From Lachnospiraceae bacterium (GTDB taxonomy: Bacteria > Bacillota > Clostridia > Lachnospirales > Lachnospiraceae), in the NCBI GenBank assembly GCA_021199235.1, contig JAJQIL010000001.1, positions 1 through 39,522 on the forward strand: a stretch of DNA of 39,522 nucleotides. Reading direction: 5' to 3'. Positions within the stretch are counted from its first letter, which is position 1. Each line of letters opens with the position of its first letter. Shown here piece after piece: positions 13,858-34,181 of this stretch. The notes under the pieces were generated by a model. That model searched no databases. It saw only the letters and a program-made list of their open reading frames with translations, and was not told where the DNA came from. The translations under genes and the position numbers were made by a program.

Positions 13858-15450
13858 GTGATCCATCAATATAAAAATAATGGATACAACATTGTTTTGG
13901 ACGTGAACAGTGGTTCGGTTCATCTGGTCGATGAGCTTACATACGAAGTGATTGCCCAGCTCGATCAATGGCAGTCCGAGGGGAAAACGCTTTCGCTTCA
14001 GCCTGCTTCAAATGGTTCTGATCAGGAAGCTGCTTCTGATAAGGATGCCGCTGATGTTATTGCCAAAGGCTGGTCACAGGAGATTGAAACGCATATTGTT
14101 GATGCGTTGGCTGATCGATTTGATCTGACAGAGATACAGGAAGTTCTCAGTGAATGTGCTCAGCTGACCGATCTCGGCGTGCTGTTTACAGAAGATATTT
14201 ATGAAAAATCCATCATCGATTATAAGGCACGGCCGACGGTGGTCAAGGCACTCTGTCTGCATATCGCGCACGACTGTAACCTTGCCTGTCGCTATTGCTT
14301 TGCGGAGGAAGGCGAATATCACGGCCGGCGGGCTCTGATGAGTCTGGAAGTGGGCAAAAAGGCGCTGGATTTTCTGATTGCCAATTCTGGATCCAGGCGT
14401 AATCTTGAGGTGGACTTTTTCGGCGGGGAACCGCTGATGAACTGGCAGGTTGTAAAAGATATCGTGAAATACGGCCGTGAACAGGAAAAGCTCCATAATA
14501 AAAACTTCCGCTTTACCATGACCACGAACGGCGTTCTTTTAAATGACGAGATCATGGAATTCCTGAATCGGGAGATGGCGAATGTCGTACTCAGTATTGA
14601 CGGACGGAAGGAAGTACACGATTATATGCGGCCGTTCCGCGGCGGAAAGGGCAGCTATGATCTGGTCATGCCGAAGTTCAAATATTTTGTGGAACTTCGC
14701 GAAGGAAAATCTTTAAAATCTTTTGAAGAAAATGAAGCTGGTGAAGGTGCAGCACATGCGAATCCTGCGCTTACAAAGCAGGAACCATCCGGGAAAAGAA
14801 AGGCCGCGGGGTCTACCGCTTCCGAGAAGACCTGGTATGTCCGCGGTACATTTACGCATCATAACCTTGATTTCTGCAATGACGTCCTGCATCTTGCGGA
14901 TGAGGGCTTTGACCGGATTTCCGTGGAGCCGGTAGTCGCAGAGGATTCCGAAGATTACGCGATCCGCAAAGAGGATCTGCCGCAAATCTTTTCGGAATAT
15001 GACCGACTGGCGCAGGAGATGGTAAAGCGAAACAAAGAGGGCAGAGGATTTACCTTTTTCCACTTTATGATCGATCTGACCGGCGGCCCCTGCGTATACA
15101 AACGTTTGTCCGGCTGCGGTTCGGGGACAGAGTATCTCGCGGTCACGCCGTGGGGCGATCTGTATCCCTGCCACCAGTTTGTTGGGCATGAGGAATATCT
15201 TCTTGGTAATGTGGATGAAGGCGTGGTGCGGACGGATATTGTGGATCAGTTTAAGGCCTGCAATGTCTACACAAAAGAGAAATGTAAAAACTGTTTTGCA
15301 AAATTTTACTGCAGCGGCGGCTGCGCGGCAAATTCTTATAATTTCCACGGCACGATTCAGGATGCGTATGATCTGGGCTGTGAGATGATGCGTAAACGCG
15401 TGGAATGCGCGATTATGATAAAAGCGGCGGAAGAGGAAAAATGCAAATGA
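13858..15450 (+). CDS. scfB: SCIFF maturase, radical-SAM thioether-forming enzyme
   Basis: This 530-residue enzyme should crosslink the ScfA cysteines to other residues using S-adenosylmethionine. The N-terminal MIHQYKNNGYNIVLDVNSGS is the peptide-recognition start typical of SCIFF maturases. The radical-SAM cluster motif CNLACRYC is near residue 140. The C-terminal SPASM region carries the auxiliary-cluster cysteines (GPCVYKRLSGCG, YPCHQF, CKNCFAKFYCSGGC). The start is GTG at 13858, with AGAGGTG 7 nt upstream. The protein is longer than the usual roughly 450-460 residues because of two polar segments: about 37-63 and about 282-323, the latter just before WYVRGTFTH. The active-site motifs are intact. 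secDF begins 19 bp after the stop. Confidence 0.95.
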   Translation: MIHQYKNNGYNIVLDVNSGSVHLVDELTYEVIAQLDQWQSEGKTLSLQPASNGSDQEAASDKDAADVIAKGWSQEIETHIVDALADRFDLTEIQEVLSECAQLTDLGVLFTEDIYEKSIIDYKARPTVVKALCLHIAHDCNLACRYCFAEEGEYHGRRALMSLEVGKKALDFLIANSGSRRNLEVDFFGGEPLMNWQVVKDIVKYGREQEKLHNKNFRFTMTTNGVLLNDEIMEFLNREMANVVLSIDGRKEVHDYMRPFRGGKGSYDLVMPKFKYFVELREGKSLKSFEENEAGEGAAHANPALTKQEPSGKRKAAGSTASEKTWYVRGTFTHHNLDFCNDVLHLADEGFDRISVEPVVAEDSEDYAIRKEDLPQIFSEYDRLAQEMVKRNKEGRGFTFFHFMIDLTGGPCVYKRLSGCGSGTEYLAVTPWGDLYPCHQFVGHEEYLLGNVDEGVVRTDIVDQFKACNVYTKEKCKNCFAKFYCSGGCAANSYNFHGTIQDAYDLGCEMMRKRVECAIMIKAAEEEKCK

Positions 15451-28457: not shown

Positions 28458-28509
28458 TTGACTATTGGGGGACAATATGCTATAAAATTGCTTATAATTG
28501 TTCCCCAAT
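28458..28509 (+). promoter_or_regulatory. Promoter and inverted-repeat operator of the fic gene
   Basis: TTGACT (28458-28463) and TATAAA (28481-28486) are spaced exactly 17 bp. ATTGGGGGACAAT (28464-28476), between the boxes, and ATTGTTCCCCAAT (28497-28509), just before GGAGG, are inverted copies with 12 of 13 positions matching. The arms straddle the -10 box and transcription start, an arrangement typical of a dimeric repressor site. In RNA only the right arm would be fully transcribed, so an attenuator is less likely. Confidence 0.7.
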
Positions 28510-28521
28510 GGAGGTAAAGCA

Positions 28522-29469
28522 ATGGCAGCGCAATACAATGAAATACAGGAATTGCTCAGAAGACGTGCTGATCTGTATGCAAGACTGAATTTGATGCCTT
28601 ATGACGGTACACCCGAAATCAAGGAACGGGGAGATGGGAAATACCTCTATGTCAGAAAGCGTGTGGCAGGTAAGCATACTTCTACTTACGTTGGAGCATA
28701 CACCGACGAGCTTTATAATCTTCTCCTGCGCAATGCCAGAGAAGCCCGTGAGATTCGCAAAGAACTTCGCAGTGTTGAAAAGCAGCTTGCAGCTGCCGGA
28801 TATTCGGAGGATGAACTTCCAGCTGCAGTCGTTACCAACATTTCATTTGCCCGGGCAAATATGAAAATGAATATTTACGACCAGGCCGTTCTGGAAGGCG
28901 TTGCAACTTCTTTCCCGCAAACGGAAGAGATCATAGAAAACGGCAAAGTATCCGGTATGACTGCTGCCGATGTTCAGAAGATTTTGAATTTGAAACACGC
29001 ATGGGAGTTTATCCTTGACCGGGATGTGATTGCCAGCCGTAGTGACTACTATATGCTTAGCCATATAGCCAGGATCGTTAATGAGGGCTTCTTTGAGGAA
29101 GGCGGCCGTATTCGTGGCGTTCCTGTTACCATCGGCGGTTCATCCTATGTTCCGCCGCTGCCCATAGAGATAGATGTAAAGGATCAAATTCAGGAAATCA
29201 CCGAAGAAAATGACGATGCTGTCAATATCGCCATTAAACTGTGTCTGTACTGTATGAAGACACAGATCTTTCTGGATGGAAACAAACGGGCCTCTGTCAT
29301 TTTTGCGAATCATTATCTTATCGCTCATGGCGGAGGATTTCTGGTGATTCCCGAAAACCATGTTCCAGAGTTCAAAAAGCTGCTTGTAAAATACTATGAG
29401 GGAGAAGACACCTCGATTATTGCTGCTTTTATGAAAAAGAACTGTTGGAGAACAATGGGTAGTTCATGA
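28522..29469 (+). CDS. Fic-domain protein with Gln in place of the catalytic His
   Basis: Fic proteins usually transfer AMP or another nucleotide-linked group to target proteins through an HxFx(D/E)GN(G/K)R loop. In this 315-residue protein the loop reads QIFLDGNKR at 248-256, so the catalytic His is Gln248 while Phe250, Asp252, Gly253, Asn254 and Arg256 remain. The N-terminal part (1-95) has a RRRADLYARLNLMPYDGTPEIKER segment and a KYLYVRKRVAGKHTSTYVG beta segment; a charged helix (TEEIIENG, near 135-142) resembles Fic inhibitory helices but does not fit their consensus exactly. The ATG at 28522 is 7 nt after GGAGG. The His replacement may be a trait of this sub-family rather than a local mutation. 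Its stop overlaps that of the convergent MATE gene in TCATGA. Confidence 0.85.
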   Translation: MAAQYNEIQELLRRRADLYARLNLMPYDGTPEIKERGDGKYLYVRKRVAGKHTSTYVGAYTDELYNLLLRNAREAREIRKELRSVEKQLAAAGYSEDELPAAVVTNISFARANMKMNIYDQAVLEGVATSFPQTEEIIENGKVSGMTAADVQKILNLKHAWEFILDRDVIASRSDYYMLSHIARIVNEGFFEEGGRIRGVPVTIGGSSYVPPLPIEIDVKDQIQEITEENDDAVNIAIKLCLYCMKTQIFLDGNKRASVIFANHYLIAHGGGFLVIPENHVPEFKKLLVKYYEGEDTSIIAAFMKKNCWRTMGSS

Positions 29470-30819: not shown

Positions 30820-31094
30820 ATGTAAATTCCTCCGGTATGTTATTCCAATATGCTTATCTCATGATACAAAATCATCAACCGAATTTCAAGTATTCTTTCA
30901 GCAATAAACGTTTCCATTGCGAAACGATTTTGAACAGGCTTTTTTAATGGTGAGGGCACGGATCAACCGCAATTTCGCATTCTTTACAGTGGAAGAAATG
31001 AAGCAAATATGATATGATGGCTTCGATAGCAACACAGGCATGCAGCAGTCGCAGCCTTTTCTTTTTAATTAAAACCGTCAGGAATAAGTTCAAA

Positions 31095-32042
31095 ATGATT
31101 ATGACAGATGACATTAAAGCCTCAAAAGAAGAATATGATTTTCGGGTTTCGTCCGATGAGGCTGGGGAACGCCTTGACAGCCTGCTTTCGGATTGTCTGG
31201 AATCCTACAGCCGCTCCTTTCTGCAGACGCTGATCCGAAACGGTGCAGTTACGGTAAACGGCAAGAATGCAAAGCCCAGATTAAAAATTGCAGAATCTGA
31301 TTTGATTCATGTGGAAGTTCCTCCGCCGGATCCGCTGGATATTCTTCCGGAAAATATTCCGCTGGATATTTTGTATGAAGATGATGACCTGATCATTGTA
31401 AATAAGCCAAAAGGCATGGTGGTTCATCCGGCAGCGGGACATTACAGCGGGACGCTGGTCAATGCGCTCCTTTATCATTGTAAAGACAGCCTTTCCGGAA
31501 TCAATGGAGTTCTCCGTCCGGGAATCGTCCATCGGATCGACCGCGACACCACAGGTTCTCTGATCGTCTGCAAAAATGACGCAGCACACAGGGCCGTCGC
31601 CGCACAGCTCAAAGAGCACAGCATCACCAGAAAGTATCGGGCAATCGTCCATGGGCGTCTCACGGAGGATGGAACCATACATGCAGCCATCGGCAGACAC
31701 CCGCAGCGGCGAAAGGAGATGGCAGCCAACGTTGCCGGCGGAAAAGATGCCGTCACGCATTACCATGTGCTGGAGACTTTTTCACAGTTTACGTATATAG
31801 AATGCCAGCTGGAGACCGGCCGCACACATCAGATCCGTGTGCATATGAAAAGCATCGGGCATCCTTTACTGGGCGACGAAGTCTACGGACCGTCAAAATG
31901 TCCGATAGCGGGTCTGCAGGGACAGACGCTGCATGCAATGACGATTGGACTGATCCACCCGACCAGTGGAGAATATCTGGAGGTAGAGGCGCCGCTGCCG
32001 GAGTATTTTGAGCAGCTGTTAAAGAAGCTGCGGAGTATGTAG
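31095..32042 (+). CDS. RluD-type pseudouridine synthase with S4 domain
   Basis: The 315-residue enzyme converts uridines to pseudouridine in RNA; RluD-like members act on 23S rRNA. It has an N-terminal S4 RNA-binding domain (GERLDSLLSDCLESYSRS...NGAVTVNGKNAK) and a catalytic domain with GIVHRIDRDTTGSLIV, in which the Asp of HRIDRDTTG is the nucleophile, followed by ETGRTHQIRVH. The start at 31095 is preferred because AGGAA lies about 10 nt before it; an open extension to 31014 overlaps the promoter-like TATGAT region. The rRNA position modified cannot be read from sequence, so the symbol is left blank (RluD is the closest match). Confidence 0.92.
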   Translation: MIMTDDIKASKEEYDFRVSSDEAGERLDSLLSDCLESYSRSFLQTLIRNGAVTVNGKNAKPRLKIAESDLIHVEVPPPDPLDILPENIPLDILYEDDDLIIVNKPKGMVVHPAAGHYSGTLVNALLYHCKDSLSGINGVLRPGIVHRIDRDTTGSLIVCKNDAAHRAVAAQLKEHSITRKYRAIVHGRLTEDGTIHAAIGRHPQRRKEMAANVAGGKDAVTHYHVLETFSQFTYIECQLETGRTHQIRVHMKSIGHPLLGDEVYGPSKCPIAGLQGQTLHAMTIGLIHPTSGEYLEVEAPLPEYFEQLLKKLRSM

Positions 32043-32185
32043 CAATCTGTGTCGCGCTATCCTTTTGTCGCTTGAATTATTTAGTAGTTCCTTCATCAAG
32101 GTAATTCTCATAAATCTGAAGCGTAATGAAATAATCCGGAGTTTATTAAAATATTTAGGGATTAATGAACTATTTGAAGTTTAAT

Positions 32186-32218
32186 ATTAGTTTACATAAT
32201 CGTTTTATGTAAACTAAT
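32186..32218. repeat. Palindromic dif-like site upstream of dtd
   Basis: ATTAGTTTACATAA (32186-32199) and TTATGTAAACTAAT (32205-32218) are a perfect 14-bp inverted repeat around the 5-nt spacer TCGTT. The inner TTATGTAAACT equals, as I recall it, the XerD-binding arm of the Bacillus dif site. No U-run follows, so it is not a standard terminator. It lies about 90 bp before the dtd start and could also be an operator. Confidence 0.65.
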
Positions 32219-32304
32219 TCGAGATTATTTTGCTTGATGACATTTTTGACGCGACAGCTATACAATTGCTCATATATTTATAAAAAATCAGGAGGATACA
32301 AGAC

Positions 32305-32742
32305 ATGAAATTTGTTATTCAAAGGGTTACCGAGGCGTCCGTCGAGGTTGCAGGAGAGACAGTCGGAGAAATTGGGCAGGGATACTGTGTGCTGATCGGA
32401 GTGGGAAAGAACGACAGCCGAACCGATGCCGACAAGCTTATCAAGAAAATGATCGGTCTGCGCATTTTTCCTGATGATGCAGGTAAGATCAATCTTTCAC
32501 TAAAGGATGTTGGCGGCAGTCTTCTTCTGATTTCACAGTTTACCCTCTATGCGGACTGTAAAAAAGGAAATCGCCCGTCCTTTATCGAGGCAGGCGATCC
32601 TGTAATAGCAGAAGAGCTGTATGAATATATCATTGAAGAATGCAGAAAGTCGGTTCCAATCGTGGAAAAAGGCGTATTCGGCGCTCATATGAAGGTCAGT
32701 CTGTGCAATGATGGACCGTTTACCATACTTCTGGAAAGCTGA
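32305..32742 (+). CDS. dtd: D-aminoacyl-tRNA deacylase
   Basis: The enzyme hydrolyses D-amino acids (and glycine) mischarged onto tRNA, using the tRNA itself in catalysis. The 145-residue protein is full length for the family and has both signature loops: SQFTLYADCKKGNRPSF near residue 78 and the C-terminal NDGPFTILLE cross-subunit Gly-Pro motif. CAGGAGG lies about 10 nt before the ATG. It sits between two palindromes that share the half-site GTTTACA/TGTAAAC, downstream of rluD and convergent with the recombinase gene. A TTGACG box at 32246 has no convincing -10 partner, so the promoter is unresolved. Confidence 0.95.
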   Translation: MKFVIQRVTEASVEVAGETVGEIGQGYCVLIGVGKNDSRTDADKLIKKMIGLRIFPDDAGKINLSLKDVGGSLLLISQFTLYADCKKGNRPSFIEAGDPVIAEELYEYIIEECRKSVPIVEKGVFGAHMKVSLCNDGPFTILLES

Positions 32743-32773
32743 TTACATATACCATCGTGTATTAATTTGACTG

Positions 32774-32802
32774 TGGTTTACAGAAGTATATTATGTAAAC
32801 CA
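32774..32802. repeat. Palindromic dif-like site between dtd and the recombinase gene
   Basis: TGGTTTACAGAA (32774-32785) and TTATGTAAACCA (32791-32802) are inverted copies matching at 11 of 12 positions, around the 5-nt spacer GTATA. It has the same half-site and spacer length as the palindrome at 32186-32218, and its right half GTATATTATGTAAAC resembles the centre and right arm of the Bacillus dif site. It lies 31 bp after the dtd stop and about 46 bp from the end of the recombinase gene. Confidence 0.65.
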
Positions 32803-32848
32803 TTATAATGAATCAATTGAACATCTGTACAATGATAATTGCGGTTAT

Positions 32849-33907
32849 TTATGCTTCCCTCAGCTTGACAGCGCTTGCAGCTTTCCTGCGGCGGTCCTCA
32901 TCCATCGCCGCATAATGCTTTCGGGTCGTGTTGACATCCTTGTGACCCAGGACATCCGCAACGAGGTAAATGTCGCCTGTCTCTTTGTAAAGGCTGGTTC
33001 CGTATGTGCTGCGCAGCTTATGCGGCGTGATTTTCTTGGTCGTCGTGACTTCACGGGCATATTTTTTCACCATATTCTCGACTGCCTGCACGCCGATCCG
33101 ACGGCGCTGGGTAGAGTAGAAGAGAGCGTTCTCGTGCCCGGCAATCGGCGTGATGGCCTTTCTTTCCTCAAGGTAATTGCGAAGCGCAGTCTCTACCTCA
33201 TCGCCGAAGTAAACCATCATTTCCGACCCGCCTTTGCGGACGATGCGGATGCCGTTATTTTTAAAATCAATGTCATTCACATCCAGACCAACGCATTCCG
33301 ACACACGGATGCCGGTTCCAAGCAATAATGTGACGATCGCCAGATCACGAACCTTTGTTTTTTCATAATAGACCTTTTTCTGTCCGGTCAAAGAATCCCC
33401 GGCATGCTCAATGTAGTCCAGAAGCTCCGCGGTTTCATCCGCGTCAAGGCGTATGATTTCTTTCTCATGGAGCTTCGGCATATCGACCAGCAGCGTCGGA
33501 TTCGTGTGGATCATTTCATGTTTGTAAAAATATGCATAAAAACTGCGCAAAGCCGACATTTTACGTTTCAGACCGCGTTCGCCGTTCGTCACGGTTTTAT
33601 TGTCTTCATCCTTATAGACCTTCAGATATTCCTGATATTCCTCAATATCCAGCGCCTGCAGCTGATCCAGCACATCAACCGTAAGCGTCGTCACATCCTT
33701 ATCGCGGAACGTCGGATTCTCCGAAACCAGGAACTGAAAAAAAATCCGGATATCATACGCATAGGAAATGCGCGTCCTTGTCGAAGTCGTCGGCTCAATT
33801 GCCCGAAAATAATCCTTCGCAAAGCCCGGCAGCGTCTTCAGAACTTCACGCAGCCGAAGTACATTGTCCACATTTACCTGTTCATGGTAGGTCATATTTT
33901 TATCCAT
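32849..33907 (-). CDS. XerD-like tyrosine recombinase
   Basis: A 352-residue site-specific recombinase: SAM-like core-binding N-terminal domain (about 1-140, with TRTRISYAYDIRIFFQFL) and a catalytic domain carrying the first Arg in GTGIRVSECVGL, a Lys in RKGGSEM, HKLRSTYG, LGHKDVNTT and the nucleophile Tyr332 in RKHYA. All catalytic positions are intact. The ATG at 33907 follows GAAAGGG by about 10 nt; the frame opens up to 33937 without a ribosome-binding site. No phage or integrative-element genes surround it, and similar proteins seem widespread on Lachnospiraceae chromosomes (from memory), so a housekeeping Xer-like role is plausible. The nearby dif-like palindromes are candidate binding sites. 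A strong promoter lies about 240 bp upstream. Confidence 0.9.
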   Translation of the reverse strand: MDKNMTYHEQVNVDNVLRLREVLKTLPGFAKDYFRAIEPTTSTRTRISYAYDIRIFFQFLVSENPTFRDKDVTTLTVDVLDQLQALDIEEYQEYLKVYKDEDNKTVTNGERGLKRKMSALRSFYAYFYKHEMIHTNPTLLVDMPKLHEKEIIRLDADETAELLDYIEHAGDSLTGQKKVYYEKTKVRDLAIVTLLLGTGIRVSECVGLDVNDIDFKNNGIRIVRKGGSEMMVYFGDEVETALRNYLEERKAITPIAGHENALFYSTQRRRIGVQAVENMVKKYAREVTTTKKITPHKLRSTYGTSLYKETGDIYLVADVLGHKDVNTTRKHYAAMDEDRRRKAASAVKLREA

Positions 33908-34071: not shown

Positions 34072-34124
34072 CATGTTTTTTTATTAGATGGAACACATAG
34101 TGCTCCATCTATAAAAAAAACATG
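34072..34124. repeat. 53-bp near-palindrome in the recombinase leader
   Basis: Two 25-nt arms (34072-34096 and 34100-34124) are inverted copies with about 22 matching positions around a central ATA. Each arm runs from CATG through a T-run to AGATGGA and CAC. It lies between the recombinase promoter and its start codon, within the predicted transcript. No U-run follows outside the arms, so it is not an ordinary terminator. A partial third copy (CCATCTAA then ATAAAAA on the minus strand) occurs near 33940-33962. Confidence 0.65.
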
Positions 34125-34153
34125 TGTTTGTCGTATAGATGTATTCCGTATTT

Positions 34154-34181
34154 ATTATACTTCTGCTTTTTGTTTTGTCAA
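34154..34181 (-). promoter_or_regulatory. Promoter of the XerD-like recombinase gene
   Basis: On the minus strand a perfect TTGACA (34181-34176) and a perfect TATAAT (34159-34154) are 16 bp apart. The transcript would start near 34147 and have a leader of about 240 nt that includes the 53-bp palindrome. The rest of 33908-34279 is AT-rich with no gene. Confidence 0.75.

Follow-up and report, generated by a model that had tools for sequence, protein, structure and literature searches.

The two inverted repeats that flank dtd at the replication terminus of a Lachnospiraceae bacterium have arms of the XerD type, and we propose that they serve a XerD that acts there as a non-recombining terminus protein and likely unloads SMC complexes, with chromosome dimers being resolved by a XerS-like enzyme at a site of its own. 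We give this reading as a whole a probability of about 60%. The sites, their place at the terminus, their clustering, their co-occurrence with XerD, the replacement of the catalytic lysine in XerD and the separate XerS-type site are read directly from the sequence. The window, by which we mean the whole stretch of 39,522 nucleotides that was analysed, is contig C28 of a genome of 3.47 Mb (161 contigs, 95% complete); its relevant features, and the xerD gene on another contig, are collected in Table 1.

Table 1. Coordinates of the palindromes, the probable dif, the recombinase genes and their neighbours.
Feature	Position	Strand	Description
Cumulative GC skew peak (replication terminus)	31001..33000		GC skew of the window
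RluD-like pseudouridine synthase	31014..32042	+	Beyond dtd; neighbour outside the system
Site A	32186..32218		Perfect 14-bp inverted repeat, 5-bp spacer; ATTAGTTTACATAA-TCGTT-TTATGTAAACTAAT
dtd, D-aminoacyl-tRNA deacylase	32305..32742	+	Between sites A and B; neighbour outside the system
Site B	32774..32802		12-bp inverted repeat, one mismatch, 5-bp spacer; TGGTTTACAGAA-GTATA-TTATGTAAACCA
XerS-like tyrosine recombinase, 362 aa	32849..33937	-	Best NCBIfam model NF003462 (XerS)
Probable true dif of the XerS-like recombinase	34107..34140	-	ATCTATACGACAAA-CACATG-TTTTTTTTATAGAT
Promoter-like sequence	34154..34181	-	12/12 to consensus; just upstream of the XerS-type dif, reads toward the recombinase gene
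XerD-like gene, single	G000:C38:25855-26736		Contig other than the window's; TIGR02225, 327.3 bits (cut-off 329.6)

Results

Two palindromes at the replication terminus

The cores of the two sites, GTTTACATAA-TCGTT-TTATGTAAAC at 32190-32214 (centre 32202) and GTTTACAGAA-GTATA-TTATGTAAAC at 32776-32800 (centre 32788), have the spacing, spacers and centres given in a preliminary description of this DNA. That description had counted two copies of the half-site in the window, each paired with its exact inverted copy. We count three exact copies of TTATGTAAAC, at 32190-32199 on the minus strand and at 32205-32214 and 32791-32800 on the plus strand; the fourth arm (32776-32785, minus strand) reads TTCTGTAAAC, one mismatch away from TTATGTAAAC, so that the exact pairing holds for site A and not for site B. 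With up to one mismatch allowed, the half-site matches at eight places in the window, whereas shuffled sequence gives 1.6 on average. The whole-genome search for paired half-sites that had been suggested, run over all 3.47 Mb with one free base per arm and a gap of 4-8 bases, matched sites A and B only (reversed control, 0). In PMC3025954, the B. subtilis dif is given as ACTTCCTAGAATATATATTATGTAAACT, and its XerD arm is identical to the half-site, as the preliminary description had said; over 11 bp, site A agrees with that arm at 11/11 positions on both sides and site B at 10/11 and 9/11.

The start of dtd lies about 90 bp past site A. A weak third palindrome match in the window (14184-14208, three mismatches) falls inside a reading frame (FTEDIYEK) and looks like a coding coincidence. 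Elsewhere in the window, at 28498-29469 on the plus strand, a predicted protein of 323 aa contains an FLDGNKRA stretch, which we take to be a Fic/Doc-like motif.

At about 32.5 kb in the window GC skew changes sign, from mostly positive values on the left to negative ones on the right, and the cumulative curve peaks at 31-33 kb. Where a relative's locus offers 4 kb or more on each side of the recombinase gene, the sign of the skew flips at the gene in 56 of 57 cases, the exception being L037; 23 loci with too little flank were excluded. The 3.3-Mb contig G084:C2 (genome of L069) was followed in 20 sampled stretches: skew is positive to 350 kb, is negative from 360 kb, weakly at first and then clearly, and stays so to about 2.0 Mb; it is close to zero at 2.3 Mb and positive again from 2.64 Mb onward. 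The switch between 350 and 360 kb encloses the recombinase at 353.5 kb and the XerS-type dif at 354.5 kb. On the contig of L035 (G017:C1), the lasting switch at about 161-165 kb lies at the XerS-type site, but the skew already reaches a higher local maximum at 54 kb. With a sign flip in the window, at 56 of 57 loci of relatives and in G084:C2, this DNA is the terminus/dif region, in keeping with the dif-type system of the preliminary description.

A XerS-like recombinase with a separate conserved site

The recombinase scores 210.6 bits with its best model, below the cut-off of 267, and the Arg, Lys, His, Arg, His, Tyr set of tyrosine recombinases is readable in it by eye. A single-recombinase system, as envisaged in the preliminary description, agrees with its being nearest to the XerS kind. 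Genome contigs were scanned for its relatives, and the best 80 of 473 were taken. In 76 of these 80, the gene is preceded by a 34-bp imperfect inverted repeat with the consensus ATCTATACGACAAA-N6-TTTTTCAAATAGAT and a few variants; the copy in the window is about 170 bp upstream and three mismatches from the consensus. A scan allowing up to five mismatches over the inner arms found the site in 75 of 80 loci (reversed control, 0), and L064 is the 76th. Of the four loci without the site, L008, L029 and L082 have at most 144 bp of upstream DNA, and none is present in L032. In whole genomes, the main consensus was found in 27 of 30 chosen genomes at 28 places (reversed control, 0), 27 of which adjoin the recombinase gene; two of the three genomes without it, G017 and G069, carry a variant. 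We regard the repeat at 34107-34140 as the probable dif of the XerS-like recombinase. The 12/12 sigma-70 match abuts this dif, which suggests that the recombinase bound there could control its own gene; as a raw count, a match of at least 10/12 occurs in 31 of 76 rows, the window included.

The 28th place, G007:C76:12389-12422, is a second XerS-type dif. It has a different spacer and lies away from the recombinase contig, possibly on a plasmid or on an element that exploits this dif. The metagenome-assembled genome (MAG) G066, which supplied L045 and L054, holds two XerS-like genes, each with an upstream XerS-type dif, and is either a case of two modules or a mixed bin. Among seven other families with XerD (L147-L153), G036 and G038 have the XerS-type site at up to five mismatches upstream of the gene; in G041 and G054 it lies further away on that side.

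Palindromes cluster at the terminus of relatives

Across 81 rows (the 80 loci and the window), 62 palindromes were found within 10 kb of the recombinase in 43 rows and none in reversed controls, with up to three mismatches allowed for the form with a 5-bp spacer and up to two for a form with an extra left-arm base. The number, position, spacer and neighbours of the palindromes vary. There are one to four palindromes per locus, 7 bp to 9.3 kb from the recombinase on either side; their positions turn over even among close relatives, and the nearest relative, L007, has only an equivalent of site A at up to three mismatches. In the loci, 46 of 60 palindromes lie outside reading frames of at least 80 aa. 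Every spacer is at least 3/5 A/T and 34 of 53 are distinct; in 13 of the 15 loci with two or more sites of the 5-bp form all spacers differ, the shared ones being TTTTT at both sites of L037 and two of three in L038, on opposite strands. In L044, two identical asymmetrical sites of the extra-base form, GTTTACAGTAATAACATTATGTAAAC, stand in opposite orientation 1.1 and 2.6 kb upstream of the recombinase.

A stringent pattern run over 60 whole genomes gave 22 places in 17 genomes (reversed control, 0), all of them on the contig that carries the orthologous recombinase and no more than 8 kb from it; the 17 are among the 36 genomes of the window's genus, with 0 among 24 of other families. At up to three mismatches, 20 chosen genomes yielded 30 places against 11 in the reversed control, 16 within 10 kb of the recombinase, 13 elsewhere and one, on G031:C98, assigned to neither group; five of the 20 had no place at this threshold. 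Fourteen places have at most one mismatch; six of them are remote from the recombinase and share a single 25-mer sequence, and the three copies examined are all inside a conserved reading frame (FTEMIYVN). For the extra-base form, 35 genomes gave 17 places in 12 genomes (control, 1), 13 of them on the recombinase contig within about 21 kb of the recombinase. In the seven other families with XerD (L147-L153), sites at up to three mismatches were found only in G038, which has two with a 6-bp spacer beside the recombinase. With the stringent pattern all 22 places are near the recombinase, and the many copies at unrelated promoters that the preliminary description had named as its refuting case did not appear, though weaker matches occur elsewhere; scattered operators were rejected as an explanation.

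The gene dtd was found in 53 of 80 loci in varying positions, and not in the available flanks of seven loci with palindromes (L030, L032, L033, L034, L035, L037 and L072). Exchange between sites A and B around dtd was rejected on these grounds, and the same seven loci speak against the earlier suggestion that the palindromes control dtd.

XerD is conserved without its catalytic lysine

When the genome was searched with the XerD profile, matches other than XerD and the XerS-like gene reached at most 78.5 bits, so that no third Xer-like gene and no XerC was seen, as judged from matches to the XerD profile, in a genome that is 95% complete. Aligned to E. coli XerD (1a0p), the protein has Asp at K172, which we take to be the catalytic lysine of E. 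coli XerD, and Gln for the first His of HxxR. In 64 distinct XerDs from 87 retrieved loci (among those left out were the XerDs of G025, G068, G079, G128 and G131 and the fragments in G032 and G059), the K172 position holds Asp in 46, Glu in 15, and Ser, Tyr and Asn in one each; Lys occurs in none. Of the other residues, Arg247 is invariant among the 64, Arg148 is kept in 62, His270 and Tyr279 are kept in 60, and the HxxR His is kept in 46.

Four XerDs (G001, G008, G013, G014) end near residue 255-259, without His270 and Tyr279; in the corresponding genes (L111, L089, L100 and L096, respectively), the last 35-39 codons are gone and the rest is conserved. Palindromes are perfect in G013 and G014, and G008 and G001 have a one-mismatch and a two-mismatch palindrome, respectively, each on the recombinase contig. 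Over residues 1-255, dN/dS was 0.04-0.17 in 26 of 28 pairs of eight close XerDs, these being the computable pairs, with dS saturated in many. XerD is under purifying selection. We read the low dN/dS together with the replaced catalytic lysine as preservation of the protein after loss of its chemistry. As most XerDs retain both Arg, His270 and Tyr279, we call recombinase activity of XerD no more than unlikely. Other families contributed 24 genomes, eight of which have XerD, in one case as fragments. SMC is encoded in all six genomes searched for it, which included this genome and genomes without XerD.

XerD and the palindromes often occur together

The search for XerD covered the genome of every one of the 80 loci, L045 and L054 sharing one. 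With the window included, palindromes are present in 39 of 57 rows with XerD versus four of 24 without (Fisher p = 2.3e-5); the kinship-corrected association, with five independent pairs, too few to decide, has a median p of 1. In a tree of 80 rows, which keeps L049 and omits its twin L050, a clade of 15 rows that includes records named Mediterraneibacter, Schaedlerella and Ruminococcus turbiniformis is without XerD and has palindromes in 0 of 15; it has kept the XerS-like gene in 15 of 15 and the XerS-type site in 14, the remaining locus, L082, being too short upstream to show it. A second clade has six rows: XerD and palindromes are both absent from L039, L040, L043, L051 and L075 and both present in L057. 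No palindrome was found in the available flanks of 18 of the 57 rows with XerD. Four rows have palindromes without XerD (L019, L028, L029 and L052), the first three of which are nested in a XerD-bearing clade, so that XerD is perhaps missing there from incomplete MAGs.

Discussion

From these data we infer XerD binding, SMC unloading and dimer resolution at the XerS-type site. We hypothesise that sites A and B are docking sites for the XerD encoded on C38, in which each TTATGTAAAC arm would hold one XerD monomer, and that the XerD of this order has lost recombinase chemistry and would have a terminus-binding role instead. Binding of XerD to the palindromes is highly probable. Its most likely job would be the unloading of SMC complexes that reach the terminus; by analogy with B. 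subtilis XerD, we hold this to be the probable purpose of XerD at the palindromes. Chromosome dimers would be resolved separately, by the XerS-like enzyme at 34107-34140.

The preliminary description raised the possibility that the palindromes are recombination sites of the adjacent XerS-like recombinase acting alone, which the neighbouring gene, the terminus position and symmetrical arms suited to one recombinase would favour. This has become very improbable: the recombinase has a different conserved site just upstream of its gene, on which ground the palindromes were rejected as its dif, and they are missing from 20 of 24 rows without XerD despite the recombinase, the 15-row clade among them. 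The differing spacers within 13 of 15 loci and the turnover of palindrome number and place point the same way. Recombination at the palindromes by a XerD homodimer would account for a XerD arm on both sides, and the Tyr and both Arg are kept in most XerDs; we nevertheless consider it very unlikely, given that the catalytic lysine is replaced in 64 of 64 distinct XerDs, mostly by Asp or Glu, that palindromes are present in the genomes of the four XerDs without Tyr, and that the spacer is 5 bp versus 6 bp in the B. subtilis dif, counting 11-bp arms.

Palindrome-bound XerD could also help the XerS-type system, as an architectural or regulatory factor in its recombination or in the expression of xerS. 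The clustering of palindromes near the xerS-like gene and its dif would fit this, as would the promoter-like sequence abutting the dif, but distances from 7 bp to 9.3 kb on either side of the gene do not, and the Mediterraneibacter-type clade retains recombinase and dif without XerD or palindromes; we regard such a role as unlikely. That the palindromes are operators of an unrelated regulator of dtd or other local genes, as the position of site A before the dtd start might suggest, is highly improbable in view of the seven palindrome loci without dtd in their flanks, the varying position of dtd, the restriction of stringent places to the neighbourhood of the terminus, and an arm identical to the XerD arm of the B. 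subtilis dif.

The palindromes have the arm and the location of candidate XerD binding and SMC-unloading sites, with weaker matches elsewhere in genomes. B. subtilis XerD is described in PMC12322038, PMC8357415, PMC9733580 and PMC8242196 as a sequence-specific SMC unloader at the terminus, and the system described here shares with it SMC in the genome and XerD-type arms at the terminus, frequently at two or more sites. It differs in that no XerC was seen, XerD is without the catalytic lysine, there is a XerS-type module apart from XerD, and the sites are palindromic with a 5-bp spacer, the B. subtilis sites being compared by description only. PMC13342612 places SMC unloading at dif itself, which we count against our explanation. 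The main weakness of the explanation is that genomes without XerD still encode SMC, so that unloading by XerD is neither universal nor indispensable. Work by Karaboja in 2021 reportedly found that SMC unloading uses XerD-specific sites, with catalysis, XerC and dif dispensable.

With the classical XerC/XerD dif of B. subtilis and E. coli, the palindromes share the XerD arm TTATGTAAACT and the terminus position. Unlike that dif, which has distinct arms around a centre of 6-8 bp, both of their arms are XerD-type, without a XerC arm, the centre is 5 bp in place of 6 bp, and there are up to four sites per terminus. A competent pair of XerC and XerD, which the classical system requires, was not found: XerD has Asp for the catalytic lysine and no XerC gene was seen among the matches to the XerD profile. 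The XerS-type module, in turn, is like XerS/difSL of streptococci and lactococci, which is described as a gene-and-site module in PMC5357621: a single recombinase of about 360 aa (362 aa here, about 356 aa in the XerS family) stands beside a putative recombination site at the terminus, and the site is an imperfect inverted repeat with TTTTC/GAAAA-like elements. It departs from XerS/difSL in a protein that scores below the model cut-off, in a site about 34 bp long whose 14-bp arms enclose a 6-bp centre, versus 31 bp with an 11-bp centre, and in the XerD-type palindromes that adjoin it.

In Bacillus, XerD serves two functions at the terminus: it resolves dimers together with XerC, and it unloads SMC. 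If our explanation is true, evolution has split these functions, with the XerS-type module resolving dimers and XerD remaining as a DNA-bound terminus factor. The wider statement, that the XerD of Lachnospirales has turned into a catalytically disabled terminus protein with palindromic docking sites of its own, that SMC unloading has been split from dimer resolution, which was taken over by the XerS-type module, and that one large clade has lost XerD and the sites together, is one to which we would give even odds. Within the scope of a search by title and abstract that covered few subscription papers, there was no report of XerD-arm palindromes beside a XerS-type system, nor of the loss of the XerD lysine in Lachnospirales. 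On our explanation the XerS-type dif is told apart from XerD-arm look-alikes that homology-based prediction of dif could mispick, and a gene annotated as 'site-specific recombinase XerD' may, if the explanation is true, not recombine. The system would then offer a natural test that SMC unloading needs no recombination and would provide a sequence code for terminus sites across a large group of gut bacteria.
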